From NCBI GenBank assembly GCA_003660555.1, contig QMUK01000050.1, forward strand, positions 1-8,912: a stretch of 8,912 nt of DNA, in the 5' to 3' direction. Below, piece by piece: positions 1-8,723 of this stretch. The stretch's first letter is position 1, and each line of letters opens with the position of its first letter. A program made the position numbers and the translations under genes. The notes under the pieces were generated by a model, which was not told the origin of the DNA, searched no databases, and saw only the letters and a list, made by a program, of their open reading frames with translations. The stretch is from Thermococci archaeon (GTDB lineage: Archaea > Hadarchaeota > B88-G9).

Positions 1-554
1 AGAATGAACAAGGCATAAAAATACTCTTTTCTGGCAGAATACGATAGGAAAATTGCTCCTGGAACTACTAGAAATGCAGGAATCACTAATTCTGGAGGAA
101 GACCAAATATCTTGCCTAGAATTGGGACTCCTTGGCTTATAGTAACTAGAACACAGAACAAAGCTCCGACTGAGTATAGGAGAATTCCAATTCCTTTGAA
201 GAAGTTTTTATCTAGGAAAATCGAGCTTTCAGAAAATTTTCGTCTTTCGATGTATCTTCCCCCTAGATATATACCAGAAATCAGTGAAACGTATCCCAAG
301 GAGAAGATCGCCCTAGAAATAGGAGACATCGATCTAAAACTGAGTAAGTAAAAGAGCAGTACAACCAAGCTAACAGCATTTATCGGGTTGAACATAGGGG
401 CTAAATCTAACTTCTCTAGTGCCCCTATCTCGATTCTCGGAATATTGTCTCTAACTCGAGAGTAAACTTTTATGTATCTCTTAGAAATAGGCCGAATTAC
501 TCTCGAGAGAGAACAAGCAAAGTAGGAAAACCTTCTGATTAGGTCCTCAATCAA
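1..554 (-). CDS. Partial multi-pass membrane protein, Wzy-like (third polymerase-like copy), 3' end outside window
   Basis: An open frame of 184 codons runs off the left edge. The start is TTG at 554, directly after the stop of the upstream gene, with GGTGAT at 564-559 (inside that gene) as ribosome site. The first ~50 residues are basic and probably cytoplasmic. Hydrophobic segments follow at about residues 57-73, 80-98, 119-139 and 155-172. The visible half lines up with the N-terminal half of the protein encoded at 2357-3388: both start with a hydrophobic first residue plus Ile and an acidic/basic Leu-Ile patch, have Gly-Gly/Ser-Arg before a basic loop (GGR 98-100, then ERRK), and have Gly-Val/Ser-Pro (142-144) after the next helix. 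I infer a third member of the same polymerase-like family. The catalytic half is not in the window, so function rests on this alignment and on operon position. Confidence 0.72.
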   Translation of the reverse strand, partial: MIEDLIRRFSYFACSLSRVIRPISKRYIKVYSRVRDNIPRIEIGALEKLDLAPMFNPINAVSLVVLLFYLLSFRSMSPISRAIFSLGYVSLISGIYLGGRYIERRKFSESSIFLDKNFFKGIGILLYSVGALFCVLVTISQGVPILGKIFGLPPELVIPAFLVVPGAIFLSYSARKEYFYALFI

Positions 555-1232
555 CTACATCACCTTTACGCAGTGCACTCTACATCTCCCAACGTGAACT
601 CTATCGTAACTCAGTCCAGAGAGGAACTCCAAGCCCTTAATACTAGTCTTTTCCAACGTAGCTAGTATTCCGTTTGGATACAGCACCAAGCTTAGACCTA
701 GGCCACCTTCACTCCACGAGACTTTGGAATTTAGTTCTGCTATCTCTGAGGGAGAGCTTTCCTTCTCAAACCCAATTACTCCTTCAACGTATATTAAGTC
801 ACATTTCTCTTCTTCTCTTATTTCCTTTACTTTTTCCAGAAGTTCTGTTGGATTCTCAACGTTTTTAAGTATGAAAATCTCTTCTTCTTTATCCAAAGCC
901 CTCATTTTTATTTTGATGGATGCAAAGTCTTCTATGTAGGCGTATTGCCCCCCTATGCTTACTACTGTTTCGTTTTCTGTGAGCACCCTGAGCCTTCCAC
1001 TTATTCCGTCAAGGAAGTATCCCTCTAACTTACCTTTCTGCTTACTTCTAGTGTAGTACCCCTCTATCTCCAAATGAATCAACTTCCCCTCTTGGTTTAA
1101 CTCTATGGCCTTCTTCACAGCATCGTAAATCCTATACTCGAAGACATATTCGCTTTGTGTGATGAACTTCAGTCCAGTTGGCAGGGAGACAATTACGAGT
1201 ATTAGTAGTACTGCGAGGTCAAACCTCCTCAT
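555..1232 (-). CDS. Single-pass membrane-anchored protein with an outside domain, paralogue of the protein at 3378-4001
   Basis: 225 residues. The start ATG at 1232 lies 14 bases inside the previous gene, behind GGAGGGTGA at about 1244-1236. One N-terminal membrane segment (about residues 5-20, after MRRFD) is followed by a soluble, mostly polar domain that should face outward. I do not recognise a named domain. Compared with the 207-residue protein of the same operon, the anchor begins in the same way (basic residues, Phe/Leu-Asp-Leu, then VIVS). A middle stretch also aligns: VVSIGG...ASIKI (90-108) against IIEIGE...TSIKI (92-109). The tail from about 140 to 225 differs and holds three cysteines (144, 217, 221), the last two in a CRVHC pair near the C-terminus. 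It sits immediately before a polymerase-like gene, as its paralogue does, so it may be a partner of that enzyme; this is inference. Confidence 0.75.
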   Translation of the reverse strand: MRRFDLAVLLILVIVSLPTGLKFITQSEYVFEYRIYDAVKKAIELNQEGKLIHLEIEGYYTRSKQKGKLEGYFLDGISGRLRVLTENETVVSIGGQYAYIEDFASIKIKMRALDKEEEIFILKNVENPTELLEKVKEIREEEKCDLIYVEGVIGFEKESSPSEIAELNSKVSWSEGGLGLSLVLYPNGILATLEKTSIKGLEFLSGLSYDRVHVGRCRVHCVKVM

Positions 1233-2370
1233 CTCTCACCCTCCAGGAGACGTATGAGAGTGTCACTAATATAGTTAGCATACTTCCCTCTATTCCCGTC
1301 TCTACACCCACTGCTAAGAAGGAGAGGAAGACCGAGTAAGGATATCTATCCAGTTTGCTACGGGATTTGGCTACGGATGACAAAATACCAAGTATCGCGA
1401 AAAATGAGAATAGCCCAGGCACTCCGAAATCCAACATAGGAGGACCAAATATTGTGGAAGTCAAACTTATCCCCTCTTGGCCAAATACAACTTCAGACAC
1501 CACCTCTCTAGCTCTGGGCATCGAGAAGATCGCTTTCCCCATAGTGGACCCATATGGCCAAGAAACACCTATGGATTCAGAGAAGACCCAGAGAGTGTGA
1601 GCCGATCTATATATGGGAAGTCCTAGAACTCCAATGTTCCATTCCTGCGGTGAATGAGAAATGACTGAGTATCCTATCAATACTATCGGGAGGGGAATGA
1701 GGAGACAGAGGATTGAGATATTCCTCAAATCTTCACCGGAGAGATATAGGTCTATGACCAGGGCCATAAGTAAGACCAAGGGTTCCAGTCTGAATCCAAA
1801 CAGGGAAGTTGACGTCGCTGCCACTAAGGTCCAAACTATCTCCTTCTTTCTTTCACCTCTCACCGAGAAGTAGTATAACCCCAGCAGTATTAGCATGAGG
1901 GAAACCATCCTTATTGGAGAAGTAGATGTGCTCAGTCTTAGATTCCAATCCAAAAGTGGGATACCCCTCACTATGGAGAAGATCGGTGGAACCGAGACTC
2001 CTATTAAAAGAGAAAGGTGGGACAAGAATTGAGTTACTCTACCATCAGAGAAATTAGCCCTCCCATGGTATCTATGGAGGAGGAACAACAAAATTGGTGG
2101 AACAATCGAATAAGTCTTCTCTACTGAATAAAGAACAAATACCCCGAGAATTAGTAGTGGAAACACTAGGTACTTCCCTATGAATGAGAAATCTCTCGAT
2201 GAATAAATGCAGAAAGTGGTGAGAGACACGAGAACTGCTATTGTTACCTTCACTAGGTGAAGTTTCGAATGAAAACCGAACTTGATGCTCCCTGCTATAG
2301 ACAAGAGAAGAAAGAACAGCACTGCTATGATCAAAAAGACACAGGGTTCTAATCTCCTACTCTTTCCCAA
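1219..2370 (-). CDS. Multi-pass membrane protein, O-antigen/oligosaccharide repeat unit polymerase-like (Wzy-type)
   Basis: 383 residues and about ten hydrophobic segments. The start is TTG at 2370, chosen because GAGGTGGT lies six bases or so upstream, inside the end of the preceding gene (14-base overlap). Visible family-like signatures are GIPLL at 136-140 followed by Arg, GFR at 192-194 after a Thr/Ser-rich helix end, YRSAHTL at 254-260, and a C-terminal block TSTIFGPPMLDFGVPG (304-319) followed by a hydrophobic helix, then VETG at 356-359. Wzy-type polymerases that join glycan repeat units on the outer membrane face typically carry such a Thr-rich stretch leading into an Asp-Phe-Gly-x-x-Gly helix. 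All these marks recur in the neighbour at 2357-3388, so the two are paralogues. The substrate is unknown. Another multi-pass transferase of the GT-C or O-antigen ligase type is the main alternative. Confidence 0.78.
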   Translation of the reverse strand: MGKSRRLEPCVFLIIAVLFFLLLSIAGSIKFGFHSKLHLVKVTIAVLVSLTTFCIYSSRDFSFIGKYLVFPLLILGVFVLYSVEKTYSIVPPILLFLLHRYHGRANFSDGRVTQFLSHLSLLIGVSVPPIFSIVRGIPLLDWNLRLSTSTSPIRMVSLMLILLGLYYFSVRGERKKEIVWTLVAATSTSLFGFRLEPLVLLMALVIDLYLSGEDLRNISILCLLIPLPIVLIGYSVISHSPQEWNIGVLGLPIYRSAHTLWVFSESIGVSWPYGSTMGKAIFSMPRAREVVSEVVFGQEGISLTSTIFGPPMLDFGVPGLFSFFAILGILSSVAKSRSKLDRYPYSVFLSFLAVGVETGIEGSMLTILVTLSYVSWRVRDEEV

Positions 2371-3388
2371 AGTACCACCTCATCAGAACGGATAATACTA
2401 GGGATCCCACTAAGTAGACGTGGGCGGGCCCGGACTCCACCCAAAGGACGAGGGATGCCAAGTACATTGAGTAGCAAGTGGGACACCACATCAAGAAAAC
2501 AAAGGATAGAAATCCCATTATGAACGAGAAAGAAACTAGCCCCACTATCCCCAAATCCAATAGAATGGGGCCAATCATAGTGGAAGTGTAGCTCTTAGGC
2601 CAACCCAGAGTTACTTCTCCTATGGAGGGACCGATCAATTCCCTCTCTCCTATCACCAAATCCAAGAAGTAAGAGTTGAGGAACAATTTTCCGTGGTACA
2701 TCCCAAAAGCAAGTTTTTTTTCATTTATTTCTACCTCTATTATTCTTTGCAGCGAATAAAGAGTGAAACCAGCTCTTCCAGTGACTAGGTATCCAAGAGG
2801 ATAGAGGCATCCTTCCGAAATGTAGGAAGACAGGACCTTGTACGTTAGAGATGTGACTAGCACTAGAATCAGGAAGAAACTCGGCCAAAAGCTTTCTTCT
2901 CTCTCAGAGAAATGCAATCTGAAGTAGGACCCCAATATCGGGAACAAGAAGTCTATTCTGTATCCTGATGGAAGACACACCATCATGGTGAGGACGGACA
3001 ATATAATGAATTTCCTAAAGTCTTTGGACAAGGAGACAACTCCTACTGAGAATAGAATATAGGAAAGTGTCCAGACAGGATTTCTCTCCCTAGCCCATAT
3101 CGTGGGGGATCCTATTACTAGGTAACTCGAAATTATGCCGATTGCTCCAAGGACTAAGATTATAGTTGAAAAAGACTGCCCAATATCTACTTTTCGTTTC
3201 TTTAGTCCAGTTCTAGAACCAAATAGGAATCCAATCCAAAAAATCATGAGAAAAAAGAGAATCATCGAGATTGAAACGAATAGTAATCCAGTTTCCAATG
3301 GAATTCTACTCCAGATTCCGAGTAGGAGGTAGAAAGCAAACAGATATGACAAAATGAGATGTGGCTTCTCGATTAGTTCACGGATCAC
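2357..3388 (-). CDS. Multi-pass membrane protein, O-antigen/oligosaccharide repeat unit polymerase-like (Wzy-type)
   Basis: 343 residues with about ten hydrophobic segments. Translation starts at GTG 3388, 11 bases inside the preceding gene, with GGAGTG at 3402-3397 as ribosome site. Signatures shared with the protein at 1219-2370 are GSP (93-95), GYR (142-144), GRAGFTL (204-210), YTSTMIGPILLDLGIVG (267-283) and VESG (317-320). The GYR arginine and the Thr-Ser-Thr to Leu-Asp-x-Gly block are what I would expect of an oligosaccharide repeat unit polymerase; in that family conserved arginines are thought to bind the lipid-linked glycan. An odd detail is WCPTC at 301-305, a CxxC between two late helices that the paralogue lacks. 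It would build a surface glycan in the cytoplasmic membrane. The family assignment rests on motifs and topology, without any search. Confidence 0.78.
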   Translation of the reverse strand: MIRELIEKPHLILSYLFAFYLLLGIWSRIPLETGLLFVSISMILFFLMIFWIGFLFGSRTGLKKRKVDIGQSFSTIILVLGAIGIISSYLVIGSPTIWARERNPVWTLSYILFSVGVVSLSKDFRKFIILSVLTMMVCLPSGYRIDFLFPILGSYFRLHFSEREESFWPSFFLILVLVTSLTYKVLSSYISEGCLYPLGYLVTGRAGFTLYSLQRIIEVEINEKKLAFGMYHGKLFLNSYFLDLVIGERELIGPSIGEVTLGWPKSYTSTMIGPILLDLGIVGLVSFSFIMGFLSFVFLMWCPTCYSMYLASLVLWVESGPAHVYLVGSLVLSVLMRWYFGKE

Positions 3389-4001
3389 TTGAGATCCACT
3401 CCCTTGGTATTACCTCTTTGCCAGAGTTAAATGGTCTTTCTATTGGAATTAACGCTAAGACTACAGAGTCTTTATCGTATTTACAGTCTCTCACATCTCT
3501 CGAAACTACTAGAATCCTGTAAACACCATTACTCTCGATGAACTCAAATCTAGCACCATTGGAAAGGTCCAACTCACCTCCTTTTGGTAGAGAGAACTTA
3601 CAGATATATATTGCGTCTTTCAATTCTCTCAGCTCATCCAGTCTAACGAGTCTAGTCTTTCTTTTCACTGGGTATATCTTAATGGAAGTGGGGACTAGGT
3701 CGGAATCACCCTCTCCAATCTCTATTATTTCCCCATTGGAATCCAAATAGAGCTTACTTCCCAGAGCAACTATCACTAGTCCATCCACGCTCTTCAGACC
3801 TCTCTCTCCTGGAGTGTATCCTATGGCTTTGAGTTCCACATCGTATCCCAGAGAAAACAAAGAGTTAACTGTCTGGATGGCTCCCTCTAAATTATTCCCC
3901 ATGACTTCGAAGTACTTCTCTCTTTCGACCCTCAGGGGTATCGACACGATTACTAGGAGGAAGAGCACGACCAAGGGAACTAAGTCAAGTTTTTTAACCA
4001 A
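3378..4001 (-). CDS. Single-pass membrane-anchored protein with an outside domain, first gene of the left operon
   Basis: 207 residues. The start is TTG at 4001: an in-frame TGA at 4010-4008 blocks any longer version, and a near-perfect GGAGGTGA at 4015-4008 stands six bases upstream. Residues 6-22 form the only membrane segment, preceded by Lys-Lys, so the remaining ~180 residues should lie outside. The outside part looks beta-rich (alternating stretches such as IIEIGE 92-97 and TSIKIYP 105-111) and contains two cysteines (134 and 173). It resembles the N-terminal two thirds of the protein at 555-1232. Both precede a polymerase-like gene, which suggests a pairwise partnership, for example in substrate presentation or control of chain length. 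No known domain is recognised and the function is unknown. Confidence 0.75.
   Translation of the reverse strand: MVKKLDLVPLVVLFLLVIVSIPLRVEREKYFEVMGNNLEGAIQTVNSLFSLGYDVELKAIGYTPGERGLKSVDGLVIVALGSKLYLDSNGEIIEIGEGDSDLVPTSIKIYPVKRKTRLVRLDELRELKDAIYICKFSLPKGGELDLSNGARFEFIESNGVYRILVVSRDVRDCKYDKDSVVLALIPIERPFNSGKEVIPREWISSDP
3990..3997 (+). promoter_or_regulatory. Candidate TATA box for gatD, inside the divergent gene
   Basis: TTTTTTAA is centred about 33 bases before the gatD ATG. With the usual archaeal spacing, transcription would begin near 4020, leaving only a few leader bases. That fits the absence of a good ribosome site before gatD and suggests a nearly leaderless message. The box lies within the first codons of the minus-strand gene at 3378-4001. 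Confidence 0.4.
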
Positions 4002-4015: not shown

Positions 4016-4029
4016 ATGGGGATCCCATG
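4015..4029. promoter_or_regulatory. 15-base inverted repeat across the gatD start codon
   Basis: CATGGG-GAT-CCCATG has perfect six-base arms and a three-base spacer, and its right arm contains the gatD ATG. The left arm touches the ribosome site of the divergent operon. It could be an operator that serves both directions, or a hairpin at the 5' end of the gatD message that masks the start codon. No matching second copy was seen in the window. Confidence 0.4.
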
Positions 4030-5340
4030 TACTGGGGAAGGGCCAAGGAGTTCCTAGAAGAGAGAGGTTTTAACGTTTGGGACTACGTGGAAGTCAGCAC
4101 GGAAAGGCAAGTCTTCAGAGGAGTGATCATGCCCAGGACTCAGTTGGGGGACGATCAACATCTCGTCATAAAGCTAGACAACGGATATAACATAGGTGTG
4201 AGAATTTCTAGAATAAAGGAAATGAAGCTAATAAAGAGAGAGAAAAAAAAGAGGCTTAAAAAAGAAGAAAAAAAATATGGAAAGACGATACATGAGACGG
4301 GAGGAGGATATGTATCAATAGTCGGAACAGGTGGAACGATAGCAAGTAAAATAGACTACGAAACTGGGGCCGTCAAACCGTCCTTCAAGGTGTCTGACAT
4401 ACTCAAAAGGATACCGGAATTGAGGGAGATATCTGAAATAAAAGCTGAAGAGATAATGAACATACCCAGTGAGGACATGGAGCCAAGGAACTGGGTCAAG
4501 ATAGGAGAAAAAGTCATACAAGAAATAGAAGGCGGAGCTGAAGGAGTAGTAATAGCACATGGAACGGACACAATGTCTTATACTTCTGCAGCCCTGAGCT
4601 TCATGATACAAGATTTAAATGACCCAGTAGTGCTGGTTGGATCTCAAAGGTCTTCAGATAGACCATCCAGCGATTCAGATTTGAATCTCATGTCATCTGT
4701 TAGAGTGGCCAAAACGGATTTGGCTGAAGTAGCTGTAGTCATGCACGGAAGTATTAGCGATGACTTCTGTTTAATCCACCGTGGAACAAGGGTCAGAAAA
4801 ATGCATACATCAAGGAGAGACGCTTTCAAGACTATAAACGATTCCCCCATTGGAATAGTCACTGAAAAGGGGGAAGTCAAGTTCTTATCCAATTACAAGA
4901 AGAGATCTGATAGCAGAGGGGAAACTTGGCTGGACAAGGAAATGGAGGAAAGAGTATCCCTATTCAAGGTACACCCAGGAGTGAGCCCGGAGTTTCTGGA
5001 TTTCTTAGTAGATAAACAGAGAGGGATAGTAATAGAAGGAACAGGCATGGGTCATGTTCCCAAGAATCTATTAGATCCATTGAAGAGAGCTTTGGACTCA
5101 GGGATAGCTGTAGTCATGACTTCCCAGTGTATACACGGAAGAGTGAACATGAACGTCTACTCAAGGGGGAGAGAACTCCTGAAGATGGGAGTCATACCGG
5201 GAGAGGACATGATTCCGGAAGTTGCCATGGTCAAATTGATGTACGTCTTAGGCAAAACCGAGGACTTGAGGGAAGTCAGGAAGCTTATGTTAACGAACAT
5301 GAGAGGAGAAATTGGGAAGAGAAGTCCAATAAACGCTTAG
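4027..5340 (+). CDS. gatD: Glu-tRNA(Gln) amidotransferase subunit D (asparaginase-like, ammonia-releasing subunit)
   Basis: 437 residues, the usual length for archaeal GatD. It releases ammonia from glutamine or asparagine for the GatE subunit, which uses it to turn Glu-tRNA(Gln) into Gln-tRNA(Gln) in the cytoplasm. Residues 1-65 form the GatD-specific N-terminal domain, with the typical VIMPRTQLGD (33-42) and LDNGYNIGVR (50-59). A very lysine-rich linker follows (64-86). The L-asparaginase-type domain starts near 94: GTGGTIA (100-106, nucleophile Thr104), HGTDTMSYT (178-186, Thr180 and Asp181) and Lys229 form the expected catalytic set. A small C-terminal domain follows from about 310. ATG 4027 is chosen because the N-terminal domain is then complete. 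The start lacks a clear ribosome site. gatE follows after 14 bases, so the subunits are co-transcribed. Confidence 0.97.
   Translation: MYWGRAKEFLEERGFNVWDYVEVSTERQVFRGVIMPRTQLGDDQHLVIKLDNGYNIGVRISRIKEMKLIKREKKKRLKKEEKKYGKTIHETGGGYVSIVGTGGTIASKIDYETGAVKPSFKVSDILKRIPELREISEIKAEEIMNIPSEDMEPRNWVKIGEKVIQEIEGGAEGVVIAHGTDTMSYTSAALSFMIQDLNDPVVLVGSQRSSDRPSSDSDLNLMSSVRVAKTDLAEVAVVMHGSISDDFCLIHRGTRVRKMHTSRRDAFKTINDSPIGIVTEKGEVKFLSNYKKRSDSRGETWLDKEMEERVSLFKVHPGVSPEFLDFLVDKQRGIVIEGTGMGHVPKNLLDPLKRALDSGIAVVMTSQCIHGRVNMNVYSRGRELLKMGVIPGEDMIPEVAMVKLMYVLGKTEDLREVRKLMLTNMRGEIGKRSPINA
4068..4073 (-). promoter_or_regulatory. Candidate TATA box for the left operon, inside gatD
   Basis: The minus strand reads TTAAAA here, within codons 14-16 of gatD. 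Transcription from it would start near 4045 and give a leader of about 45 bases that carries the GGAGGTGA at 4015-4008. Because only 25 bases lie between the two genes, a promoter in this area is required, but this particular box is a weak match. Confidence 0.28.
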
Positions 5341-5354
5341 AGAGGTGTATATGA

Positions 5355-7223
5355 ATGTTCAAAGTGGGTATAGAGGTACACCAGCAACTCAATACAGGAA
5401 AACTATTCTGTAACTGCCCATCTGAGATCTCCGATAGAGAGGCTAGCTTAGTTGTTAGAAGGAAGCTAAGAGCCACAGAGAGCGAAATGGGAGAAATAGA
5501 CCCAGCAGCTTTGCTTGAGTCTTTGAGGGACAGGGAGTTTTTTTATGAAGCCGACAAGGAGACTTCCTGCTTAGTTGAACTAGATGAGGAACCACCAGGG
5601 GAAATGAACAGAGAGGCCTTGGAAGTAGCGATACAAGTTTCCCTCATGCTAGGTCTTGAACCTGTAGACGAAATACACGTCATGAGGAAGATAGTCATAG
5701 ATGGATCAAATACTACAGGATTTCAGAGGACAGCGATAGTTTCAATGGGAGAAGGAATCATAGAGACATCAAAGGGAGAAGTCAGAGTTAAGAGCGTCTG
5801 TTTAGAAGAGGAGTCAGCCAGAATAATGGAAACTACTCAGAGATCAGCCAGATACAGATTAGATAGGTTGGGAATACCTCTGATAGAGGTCTCAACCTAC
5901 CCGGACATAACGGAAGAGGGTCAAGCCAGAGAAGTAGCAGAGTACATAGGGGAAGTGCTAAGAGCTACTGGTAAAGTGAGGAGAGGGATAGGGACAATAA
6001 GACAAGATCTGAACGTATCCATAGAGGGCGGAAGCAGGCAAGAGATAAAAGGGGTTCAGGAGCTAGATCTCATAGAAGAAGTAATAAGGAGAGAGGTGAT
6101 GAGACAGAAGGAGCTTCTCAGAATAAGAGAAATTTTGAGGGAGAGAGGGGCCAGAGTAGGAAACCCAGTTGACGTAACTGAAGTTTTCCTAGGGACTAAG
6201 TCTAAGATACTCAGGAGAGAAATCTCCTCGGGAGGTAAAGTGATGTCTATTCCTCTTTTTGGATTTTCTGGGGTTTTAGGAAAGGAAATACAGCCAGGGA
6301 GAAGACTAGGTACTGAATTAGCGAATTACTCGAGAGTATATGGTGGAATACCAGGAATATTCCATACAGATGAACTTCCAGGCTATGGAATATCCGAAGA
6401 GGAGGTGAAGAGTCTGTATCACCACTTAGGGATAGAGGGAAAAGAGGACGCTGCGATATTAGTGGCAGGGAAAGAGCCTTTTCTGAGTAGGAGCTTAGAA
6501 GCCGTGATGAGAAGAGTAAAGCTCTCCATGGAGGAAATACCAGAAGAGACTAGGAAAGCTCTTCCAGATGGCAACACGGAGTTCATGAGACCACTTCCCG
6601 GAGCAGCTAGGATGTATCCCGAAACGGACGTTCCACCAATACCAATCCATCAGGAATTAATAAATAAAATTAGACTTAGTTTGCCTGAACTACCAAGGGA
6701 AAAAGCTAAAAAACTAATTTCTCTTGGGCTTAGAGAGGAGCTAGCCAATAGATTAGTAAGATCAGAGTATTTGAAAGTCTTCGAGGAGGCAATTTCCAGT
6801 ACGAACTTATCTCCGAATTTCATAGCCTCTTTCCTACTTGATACTCTAAAATCACTGAGAAGAGAGGGAGTAGATCTTTCCAGCTTGAGGGAAAGCGACT
6901 TACTAAGACTATTTGAGCTGAACTCCAAGGGACTTCTGAACAAAGAGGGCATGATCCAAGTAATTAAACTCCTCTCGAAGGGAGAGGGAAGAATGGAGGA
7001 CTTGATCAATAGATTCAAGCTAGTTCCAGAGGAAGAAATAAGGAAAATAATCTCTGAAGTAGTTTCGAAAAGAGCAAGAGATTTACTATCAGGAGATCCA
7101 AGCAGAATCTCTAAGAAATTAGTAGGAGAGGTGATGAAGAGAGTTGGAGGAAGAGCAGATGGAAGGAAAGTCTACGAGATCTTGCTTAAGGAGGTAGAGA
7201 AGCTAAGAAGGAGAGCCCAATAA
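5355..7223 (+). CDS. gatE: Glu-tRNA(Gln) amidotransferase subunit E (kinase/transamidase subunit)
   Basis: 622 residues, normal for archaeal GatE. It phosphorylates the glutamyl group of Glu-tRNA(Gln) with ATP and replaces it with ammonia delivered by GatD. The GatB/GatE catalytic cradle covers about 1-285: VGIEVHQQL (4-12), CNC at 19-21, CLVELDEEPP (72-81), MRKIVIDGSNTTGFQRT (110-126), GTIRQDLNVSI (213-223) and EIKGVQELDLI (230-240). About 290-400 is the AspRS-like insertion that sets GatE apart from bacterial GatB (RRLGTELANYSRV, 316-328; GIFHTDELPGYGI, 334-346). TEFMRPLPGAARMYPETDVP (408-427) closes the core. The helical and YqeY-like tail spans about 435-622. The start is ATG 5355, with GAGGTG at 5342-5347; an ATG at 5351 is out of frame. 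It indicates that this organism makes Gln-tRNA by transamidation. Confidence 0.97.
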   Translation: MFKVGIEVHQQLNTGKLFCNCPSEISDREASLVVRRKLRATESEMGEIDPAALLESLRDREFFYEADKETSCLVELDEEPPGEMNREALEVAIQVSLMLGLEPVDEIHVMRKIVIDGSNTTGFQRTAIVSMGEGIIETSKGEVRVKSVCLEEESARIMETTQRSARYRLDRLGIPLIEVSTYPDITEEGQAREVAEYIGEVLRATGKVRRGIGTIRQDLNVSIEGGSRQEIKGVQELDLIEEVIRREVMRQKELLRIREILRERGARVGNPVDVTEVFLGTKSKILRREISSGGKVMSIPLFGFSGVLGKEIQPGRRLGTELANYSRVYGGIPGIFHTDELPGYGISEEEVKSLYHHLGIEGKEDAAILVAGKEPFLSRSLEAVMRRVKLSMEEIPEETRKALPDGNTEFMRPLPGAARMYPETDVPPIPIHQELINKIRLSLPELPREKAKKLISLGLREELANRLVRSEYLKVFEEAISSTNLSPNFIASFLLDTLKSLRREGVDLSSLRESDLLRLFELNSKGLLNKEGMIQVIKLLSKGEGRMEDLINRFKLVPEEEIRKIISEVVSKRARDLLSGDPSRISKKLVGEVMKRVGGRADGRKVYEILLKEVEKLRRRAQ

Positions 7224-7251
7224 ATAATTAATAGAGAAAAGAGAGAAAGAG

Positions 7252-7267
7252 AGGGACTTGAATCCCT
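7252..7267 (+). terminator. Small hairpin downstream of gatE, possible terminator
   Basis: AGGGA-CTTGAA-TCCCT makes a five-pair stem with a six-base loop, starting 29 bases after the gatE stop. No T-run follows, so termination here is uncertain. On the minus strand it resembles a tRNA T-arm, but the loop is one base short and no tRNA can be folded around it. Confidence 0.2.
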
Positions 7268-7295
7268 TGATGCATCTACTGAGGTATTGGTTTCC

Positions 7296-7796
7296 ATGAG
7301 CCTCTGTGTGCTCCCACTCTTCCCCATTGTAGTCTATAGGTTCGTGAGCTCGAGGAAGCCATTTAAAGAATATTTGAAGCTCTATTCATCCTTCCTATTT
7401 TTTACGTCAATGGCTTCTTGGGGAAGCCCTCACTTCCCGATACAGGTGTATTGACAATAGGGCTACTATTCTTCACTCTGGGAATGGCGCAGCTTTTCGG
7501 AAAACTCAACCCTCTGAAAGTAGGGGACTCAATATCCTTATTTGATCGGAGCAGTATTAGCGATAGCTCTCAGGAAATCCTTGTGCAGCTCCTGCTCTAG
7601 GTTTAGTAATCTCCACAACTAGACCAATTGAACACCTGACGTATCATTGCTCTGCTTATTTAGAAGAGGAGCACCTCCTAGGAGAATTCAGGAACACTTG
7701 CCACATAGAGAATTGCCGTACTTGTAGTATCTGCTTGTTCCTCTTCTCCTTGTCATGACAGGAGAGATTCTATTCGCTCTATCTAATCGCCCATAG
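7296..7796 (+). pseudogene. Decayed small membrane protein gene with several frameshifts
   Basis: No frame stays open, yet protein-like pieces follow each other in order. From ATG 7296, 52 codons (MSLCVLPLFPIVVYRF..., then ...LFFTSMASWG) end at a TGA at 7452. A second frame from about 7418 gives GVLTIGLLFFTLGMAQLF...LNPLKV. Near 7524-7569 the first frame gives YPYLIGAVLAIAL. From about 7570 a third frame gives SGNPCAAPALGLVIST and then a cysteine-rich stretch (TCHIENCRTCSIC, 7696-7734). Near 7734-7796 a last piece reads VPLLLVMTGEILFALSN before TAG. Joined, these make about 165 residues with four or so membrane segments, a plausible polytopic protein. GAGGT at 7281-7285 could serve as ribosome site. 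I do not recognise the family. At least four indels in 500 bases, beside clean genes, point to decay rather than random sequencing error. Confidence 0.5.
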
Positions 7797-7808
7797 GAGG
7801 AGACACTC

Positions 7809-7836
7809 CACTAAGGAAACTTAGCTTAGTGTTTCC
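7809..7836 (-). terminator. Interleaved inverted repeats at the end of the winged-helix gene
   Basis: Two perfect repeats share the same bases: CACTAAG (7809-7815) with CTTAGTG (7825-7831), and GGAAAC (7815-7820) with GTTTCC (7831-7836). They cannot both be fully formed at once. They span the TAA stop at 7828-7826 of the minus-strand gene. A transcript-end hairpin is the simplest reading, although no clear T-run follows. Confidence 0.3.
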
Positions 7837-8098
7837 CACTCATCTCCCTCAGAATCTCCTCCAAGTATTCCATTAGGACTTTCTTCCCCTTTTCCGTTAT
7901 CGAGTAGTACGTCCTAGGTTTTCCCTTAACGATCGCCTTCTCTACTCTGATTAGCCCAGCTTCCTCTAACTTCTTCATGTGAGAACTCAAATTCCCGTCT
8001 GTAGTCCTGAGCTTCTCCTTTAAATACTTGAACTCTGCTTTCTCTAATCCAGAAAGTATAGCCAGAGCCTTTACCCTGATTCTGGAATCCAAGATCAT
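7826..8098 (-). CDS. Winged-helix DNA-binding regulator (ArsR/MarR-like, HTH_27 type)
   Basis: 90 residues, a bare winged-helix domain. The order fits the family of small regulators with a central TDGNLSSHMKKLEEAGLI: an N-terminal helix with RIRVKALAIL (6-15), a second helix FKYLKEKL (23-30), the recognition helix TDGNLSSHMKKLEEAG (33-48), then a wing, with KPRTYYSITEKG at 60-71, and a C-terminal helix likely used for dimer contacts. It starts at ATG 8098, overlapping the stop of the membrane protein gene as ATGA, so the two are translationally coupled. Such regulators often travel with a membrane protein and bind palindromes at their own promoter. Two 17-base palindromes upstream of this operon are the obvious candidates. 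The ligand or signal is unknown, and no cysteine metal site is present. Confidence 0.93.
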   Translation of the reverse strand: MILDSRIRVKALAILSGLEKAEFKYLKEKLRTTDGNLSSHMKKLEEAGLIRVEKAIVKGKPRTYYSITEKGKKVLMEYLEEILREMSGKH

Positions 8099-8667
8099 TC
8101 CTCTCCCTTCTCTAGGCGCTTAAGCGAAATCACTCCACCTAGGAGAAACAATATCGAGAAGTGTAAGAGCGCGTATATGAGGAACTGATACTGCCAATAG
8201 AGGAACATGGCTATCGATGAATAGGAGTAAATGAGTCCTAGGGCTACAGTGGTCCTACATCCCAGCAGGATTCCTCCTAATGATATCCATGCCCCTACCA
8301 AGATTGATATGAAAGCTCCTATGTACATCGGTTTTCCCAAAGCGATTAGCTCACCTATCACGAGGGGAAGTACTGCGAAATATATCATCCAGAACCTCTT
8401 GGCAATTCTTCCGAAGTAAGAGACCACTGAAGGAGGCTCCACTCTAGAGCTCAAGTAAAGACTCACGCCTATCACCAATACCCACCAGGGAATTATGTAC
8501 AGACCATTCAATTTACCGGCAATTGCTTGTTTGAACATCACATGAGTTACAGCAAAGCCTATAGTCGTCGTTGCCCCCCATATCGTCATTTTCTTGGCAG
8601 TGAAGAGCAAGTCCTTCTGGGAAACGCTTCTCTCCACTATTTCCCTTATTTCCTTTACCTCCTCCAA
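8095..8667 (-). CDS. Six-helix membrane protein paired with the winged-helix regulator
   Basis: 190 residues from TTG 8667. The frame stays open to an ATG at 8718, but that start would lie upstream of the TATA box at 8695-8706 and inside an operator, so it could not be transcribed from this promoter. TTG 8667 is preceded by GGGTGG, about five bases away. The first ~25 residues are a charged helix (LEEVKEIREIVERS, 1-14). Hydrophobic segments follow at about 27-45, 56-73, 92-110, 113-133, 139-156 and 160-181, with a short basic/acidic tail (KRLEKGEE). No known domain is recognised. Small multi-helix proteins of this build commonly sit beside HTH_27-type regulators and may sense a membrane signal or titrate the regulator; this is inference. 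The stop overlaps the regulator start by four bases. Confidence 0.82.
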   Translation of the reverse strand: MEEVKEIREIVERSVSQKDLLFTAKKMTIWGATTTIGFAVTHVMFKQAIAGKLNGLYIIPWWVLVIGVSLYLSSRVEPPSVVSYFGRIAKRFWMIYFAVLPLVIGELIALGKPMYIGAFISILVGAWISLGGILLGCRTTVALGLIYSYSSIAMFLYWQYQFLIYALLHFSILFLLGGVISLKRLEKGEE

Positions 8668-8677
8668 TGTGCCACCC

Positions 8678-8694
8678 ACTTTGCAATACAAAGT
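8678..8694. promoter_or_regulatory. Operator copy 1 (17-base palindrome) between TATA box and start
   Basis: ACTTTG-CAATA-CAAAGT has perfect six-base arms with a five-base spacer. It lies just downstream of the TATA box for the minus-strand operon, so a bound protein would block polymerase. The same arms and spacing recur at 8707-8723. Confidence 0.75.
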
Positions 8695-8706
8695 ATAATA
8701 TAAAAA
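8695..8706 (-). promoter_or_regulatory. TATA box of the membrane protein/regulator operon
   Basis: The minus strand reads TTTTTATATTAT. Archaeal spacing puts the transcript start near 8676, about nine bases before TTG 8667, which leaves room only for the GGGTGG ribosome site. The box fills the whole gap between the two palindromes. Confidence 0.65.
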
Positions 8707-8723
8707 ACTTTGCATCACAAAGT
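8707..8723. promoter_or_regulatory. Operator copy 2 (17-base palindrome) over the BRE side of the TATA box
   Basis: ACTTTG-CATCA-CAAAGT has arms identical to copy 1 and differs only in the spacer. The two centres are 29 bases apart. Its place over the factor-B recognition side of the promoter suits a repressor, most simply the winged-helix product of this operon. Confidence 0.75.

Follow-up and report, generated by a model that had tools for sequence, protein, structure and literature searches.

An operon-like run of polymerase and anchor genes

The window that we analyzed is a stretch of 8,912 nucleotides. It is an entire contig (C61) of a 1.3 Mb archaeal genome, which is in 150 contigs and is 91% complete. 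Bases 1-4001 contain five open reading frames, all on the minus strand. In the order of transcription, these are anchor1 (3378-4001, 207 amino acids), polB (2357-3388, 343 amino acids), polA (1219-2370, 383 amino acids), anchor2 (555-1232, 225 amino acids), and the N-terminal part of polC (3-554, 184 amino acids), which is open at the window's edge. The spacings along this chain are -11, -14, -14, and 0 bases, that is, three overlaps and one direct abutment. A previous sequence-only reading of the window had described this order (anchor, polymerase, polymerase, anchor, polymerase) and the coupling by 11-14-base overlaps or abutment, and the open reading frames bear it out.

That reading had also proposed extending the locus leftward, to count copies and to look for glycosyltransferases. 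The left end of the window shares an exact 123-base overlap with another contig of the same genome (C92). There, polC is completed on the plus strand (L006:2-775); the joined protein has 401 amino acids. Contig C92 also carries a third, convergent anchor-like gene, anchor3 (L006:695-1459, minus strand), which lies tail to tail with polC and overlaps it by 81 bases. Beyond anchor3 are HIT, PHP-domain, and Orc1/Cdc6-like genes. So the extension did add to the gene count, but it did not reveal a glycosyltransferase: Pfam searches found neither a glycosyltransferase nor a flippase in the window or on contig C92.

On the other side of the chain, gatD (4027-5340) and, next to it, gatE (5355-7223) are divergent from anchor1. 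Farther along (7826-8718, minus strand), a winged-helix regulator (HTH_34) overlaps a 207-amino-acid multi-pass membrane protein that has no Pfam match, forming a compact pair of regulator and membrane protein. Between gatE and this regulator (7224-7825), about 600 bases contain no open reading frame of 80 amino acids; this might be a decayed gene for a membrane protein. No RNA family was found in the window.

The polymerases are paralogues

We compared the polymerases to Pfam's O_anti_polymase family (PF01901), which has a curated cut-off of 24.2 bits. PolA (108.7 bits), the divergent polB (66.9 bits), and both parts of polC (27 bits for the part in the window and 140 bits for the part on C92) exceed this cut-off. 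The proteins are also similar to each other by BLASTP (polA-polB, E = 7.6e-7; polA-polC, E = 1.5e-12; polB-polC, E = 3.6e-8), with the best matches around shared motif blocks. Judging by these similarities, polA, polB, and polC are genuine paralogues, as had been proposed. The sequence-only reading had listed the shared motifs and had named a failure to align them as grounds for dropping the idea. The blocks do align across 12 sequences, some of which come from other archaea. (For the genome-wide scan, we used a 7-sequence polymerase alignment, as the 12-sequence one was too diverse.) In a 27-row alignment, P138, R255, T304, G316, G319, E357, and G359 are invariant (polA numbering), and the polymerases in the window retain these invariant residues of the archaeal family.

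Other families did not match. PolA, polB, and polC have no hit to the SEDS family (PF01098) at E values up to 10, so we describe the polymerases as resembling SEDS proteins and do not class them as SEDS. PolA (17.6 bits) and polB (6.2 bits) are below the cut-off for TIGR04370, the family of oligosaccharide repeat unit polymerases (40 bits). When a sequence profile of the polymerases was compared to solved structures, no relative was found and no solved polymerase matched.

Predicted fold and topology of polA

Our fold assignments use one AF2 model per protein, for polA and anchor2, based on alignments of 16 and 27 sequences. The model for polA has a pLDDT of 79.7 and a pTM of 0.82. Comparison to known structures with VIA-align gave FtsW (Z = 14.6, 275 residues), RodA (Z = 13.6), and WaaL (Z = 12.0, 7tpg), and the part of the model that matched these proteins is residues 66-383. 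The eight best matches are all to SEDS proteins or WaaL, with Z scores of 12.0-14.6 and 239-275 residues aligned, while the ninth has a Z of only 8.5. We therefore rule out a transporter fold for polA, which is the outcome that the sequence-only reading had said would count against it. Its assignment of the proteins to a Wzy-like polymerase family is consistent with both the PF01901 scores and the predicted fold. CAZy analysis places SEDS proteins and O-antigen ligases together in GT-C class B (PMC10920833). PolA is predicted to share this fold over most of its chain, but our confidence is only moderate because the E values from Foldseek are weak (0.11-0.15 for RodA).

We drew the topology of polA by hand from the AF2 model and hydropathy. 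It has 12 predicted transmembrane segments and a predicted outside loop of 70 residues (239-308), and SEDS proteins and WaaL have such a loop too. With this topology, there are 19 lysines or arginines among 56 inside residues versus 9 among 109 outside residues, which agrees with the positive-inside rule. Every motif block is predicted to face outside or to sit at the outer edge of the membrane. In particular, the conserved GIP, GFR, R-x3-T, TST-x2-G-x4-D-x-G, and ETG motifs are predicted to lie outside, most of them within the large loop or next to it. Transfer from lipid-diphosphate sugars would take place at this face.

The anchors are related to the sugar-binding domain of TrmB

Anchor1, anchor2, and anchor3 each have a single transmembrane segment near the N-terminus (residues 5-23 in anchor1). 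Only about five residues precede this segment, and no N-terminal DNA-binding domain was matched. Anchor2 matches the TrmB family (PF11495) with 31.9 bits (the cut-off is 22.2). Anchor1 has no match in Pfam. (Anchor2 also had a PHROG match to a DnaD-like loader, with E = 0.0019, which we judged to be spurious.) In the AF2 model of anchor2 (pLDDT = 87.1), residues 26-114 superpose on residues 248-339 of TrmB (3qph; Z = 15.9, rmsd = 1.1 Å over 86 residues, 28% identity), which form the C-terminal sugar-binding subdomain of those regulators. Residues 115-225 are predicted to form an alpha/beta domain that follows the TrmB subdomain. Unlike the TrmB regulators, the anchors are tethered to the membrane, lack the DNA-binding domain, and are encoded beside polymerases.

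We then considered the binding residues. The anchor family's motif, GGxxAYxED, maps to the stretch of TrmB that includes G320 and E326 (by a profile match, with the residues counted by hand). In TrmB from Thermococcus litoralis, mutation of G320/E326 drastically lowers the affinity for sucrose and maltose (PMC10817205). Anchor2 retains the motif (SIGGQYAYIED), including the equivalents of G320 and E326. The motif is lost in anchor1, which reads GEGDS---D, and in anchor3, which reads VGIRFNPNVH. Thus, sugar binding cannot be a general property of the anchors.

That anchor1 and anchor2 are related was claimed by the sequence-only reading but is not visible in a pairwise comparison (BLASTP E = 1.5). 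It does emerge from a profile that was built from other genomes only, leaving out the sequences of this genome. With the search size set to 5,000, this profile recovers anchor2 (E = 5.3e-25), anchor3 (E = 1.6e-10), and anchor1 (E = 7.7e-6). At the level of sequence profiles, then, anchor1 and anchor3 still belong to the anchor family.

An enlarged version of a predicted module

The pairing of these two kinds of genes has been described before, which the sequence-only reading missed, along with the TrmB-type sugar-binding domain of the anchors. Makarova, Galperin and Koonin (2015, section 3.7; PMC5898192) reported that arCOG03206 (PF01901) is typically represented by two paralogues, which share a predicted operon with arCOG03414, a secreted protein that resembles part of the sugar-binding domain of TrmB. 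They suggested that these genes function in the biosynthesis of lipopolysaccharide or in glycosylation, and they noted that the module is often co-located with PMT-family glycosyltransferases. In the literature that we searched, there was no later paper on arCOG03206 or arCOG03414. The expectation of one polymerase per locus is not supported, since archaea with the module have been described as normally having a pair of paralogues in each operon.

Like that module, the locus has at least two PF01901 paralogues and an anchored protein with a TrmB domain in one operon. It differs in having three polymerases and three anchors instead of (typically) two and one, and in its order, which is anchor-pol-pol-anchor-pol plus a convergent anchor. 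There is no PMT-family glycosyltransferase in the window or on contig C92, but this is not disqualifying because the published description says "often," which is no strict requirement. Since the operon was already described, we view the locus as an enlarged and rearranged case of the module that was predicted in 2015. It is real and coherent but is not a new kind of locus. What is new is the third polymerase, the three anchors (two of them degenerate), the rearranged order, and the setting: one genome of a phylum in which none of the other 27 genomes examined contain PF01901. We considered whether a binning error could account for this. However, for GatE, which is encoded on the same contig, the five best matches all come from the phylum to which the window belongs. 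This speaks against such an error, albeit with small margins.

Hydrothermarchaeota, Methanothermococcus, and Thermoproteota also have an anchor followed by a polymerase, and in many cases another polymerase comes next. Wherever upstream DNA is present, the first type of polymerase is directly preceded by an anchor gene. In one record from Methanothermococcus and two from Thermoproteota, an anchor is followed by two polymerases, and the genes are packed as tightly as in the window. (Copy number was counted in three phyla.) In the phylum that contig matches identify as Hydrothermarchaeota, PF01901 is found in 21 of 23 genomes, usually in two copies. At most of these loci (L044-L053 and L064-L072), the anchor gene is followed by the first polymerase, then by a gene of about 1 kb, and then by the second polymerase. 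Where it was read or searched, the gene of about 1 kb encodes a GT4 glycosyltransferase. In the loci that we read, a beta-propeller protein follows, and several of them also have a PF00953-like enzyme. In Hydrothermarchaeum, a GT4 glycosyltransferase and a PF00953 sugar-1-phosphate transferase share the operon with the polymerases; these are steps expected of a lipid-linked glycan pathway. As in these operons, our locus has an anchor gene immediately before the first polymerase, and it has a second polymerase, but it lacks the gene between the polymerases and the beta-propeller and PF00953-like genes.

A conserved membrane protein of about 110-120 amino acids directly precedes the anchor in Hydrothermarchaeota (L054:3682-4014, L047:5095-5448, and L046:1686-2045). 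It is missing from the window, and the one copy that we searched (from L054) has no match in Pfam.

In a phylogenetic tree, polC groups with all of the first-type polymerases (those that directly follow an anchor), with support of 100/97. PolA is near the second paralogue of Methanothermococcus, with weak support (86/43), and polB is unplaced on a long branch. The exact placement of polA and polB is unsafe because of their long branches. Within Hydrothermarchaeota, the first copies group apart from the second copies.

Many methanogens have PF01901 without an adjacent anchor, so the partner is not obligatory. In one phylum of methanogens, 144 of 151 genomes have PF01901 (loci L086-L115). At several of these loci, the anchor is absent and PF01901 has two conserved neighbors, one of which is flippase-like. 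If this phylum corresponds to the orders with pseudomurein walls, as we infer, then PF01901 would be a candidate for the glycan polymerase, which is as yet unassigned. On the other hand, Methanocaldococcus jannaschii also has PF01901, and it does not have pseudomurein.

Glycan assembly elsewhere in the genome

On another contig of the genome (C10), the gene for AglB adjoins one for a PF00953 enzyme. A flippase-family protein and three GT4 genes are on other contigs, and none of these genes, including those on C10, are linked to the polymerase locus. Given these genes, a lipid-linked glycan pathway is plausible. No glycosyltransferase of family 2 (PF00535) was matched in this genome, which is 91% complete, versus matches in 14 of 14 control genomes. 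At L082:6395-9241, the genes for a PF00953 sugar-1-phosphate transferase and AglB overlap tail to tail, and the pair adjoins a run of small genes whose products have pilin-like hydrophobic segments at their N-termini.

A proposed function and its alternatives

In bacteria, the SEDS polymerases FtsW and RodA work with the single-pass partners FtsI and PBP2. The locus resembles these systems in its predicted fold, in the large outside loop between core transmembrane segments 7 and 8, and, by analogy, in its putative single-pass partners. It differs in that PF01098 is not matched and the partner has a TrmB-type domain instead of a transpeptidase. The similarity of the polA model to the ligase WaaL, and the naming of PF01901 after O-antigen polymerases, also connect it to the WaaL and Wzy proteins. 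But this locus is archaeal, is not an O-antigen locus, and does not reach the cut-off of TIGR04370. Nor does it follow the plan of bacterial Wzx/Wzy loci, as glycosyltransferases, a flippase, and Wzz are absent from the window and contig C92.

We propose that the locus is an expanded archaeal operon for polysaccharide polymerization, with GT-C-type polymerases and single-pass partners that have TrmB domains (with a probability of roughly 0.7). Lipid-linked sugar units would be made inside the cell and flipped out. A multi-pass polymerase would then join the lipid-diphosphate-linked units at its outside loop, as Wzy and SEDS proteins do. Each canonical polymerase would have a single-pass partner that exposes the TrmB sugar-binding subdomain on the outside. 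The partner's probable task is to hold or sense the glycan or its lipid-linked precursor, and so it might present the acceptor, set the chain length, or activate the enzyme. Anchor2 and polC would be the canonical pair, polA may be the usual second paralogue, and anchor1 and polB would be an extra, diverged pair.

A serious rival is that the paralogues divide the work between a polymerase and a ligase, so that a chain is built and then attached to lipid or protein, with the anchor presenting the acceptor. PolA has WaaL among its best structural matches, and the fold family of SEDS and WaaL includes both activities. A division of labor would also suit the usual two paralogues per operon and the separate groups that they form in Hydrothermarchaeota. 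Sequence and fold cannot distinguish a ligase from a polymerase, however, and AglB is already available in this genome for transfer to protein, so we hold this possibility only tentatively. It is less likely that the array consists of decaying or recently acquired duplicates with little function, among which only anchor2 and polC are active. The loss of the motif from anchor1 and anchor3, the very long branches of polA and polB, and the lack of PF01901 from the other examined genomes of the phylum fit with decay, but all of the open reading frames are intact and tightly coupled, and the polymerases retain their invariant residues. Least likely is that the anchors sense the state of extracellular or precursor sugars, as TrmB does for transcription, instead of being parts of a polymerase complex. 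Their domain does come from a sugar-responsive regulator, and anchor2 retains the key residues. But with about five residues before the transmembrane segment, the anchors have no DNA-binding or cytoplasmic domain, and they are strictly coupled to polymerases.

A bolder and doubtful idea is that Archaea have a two-part glycan polymerase, comparable to a bacterial SEDS protein with its single-pass partner. A TrmB-type domain would hold or measure the growing chain, and in this genome the pair would have multiplied into three specialized units, some of which do not bind sugar.

For the question of how archaea polymerize their surface glycans, this locus brings together a predicted fold, a putative sugar-binding partner, and a conserved gene order. 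Because the binding residues can be identified, and given the conserved order and the predicted fold, point mutations could serve to probe what the partner does. Two of the three anchors have lost these residues, which provides a natural contrast.
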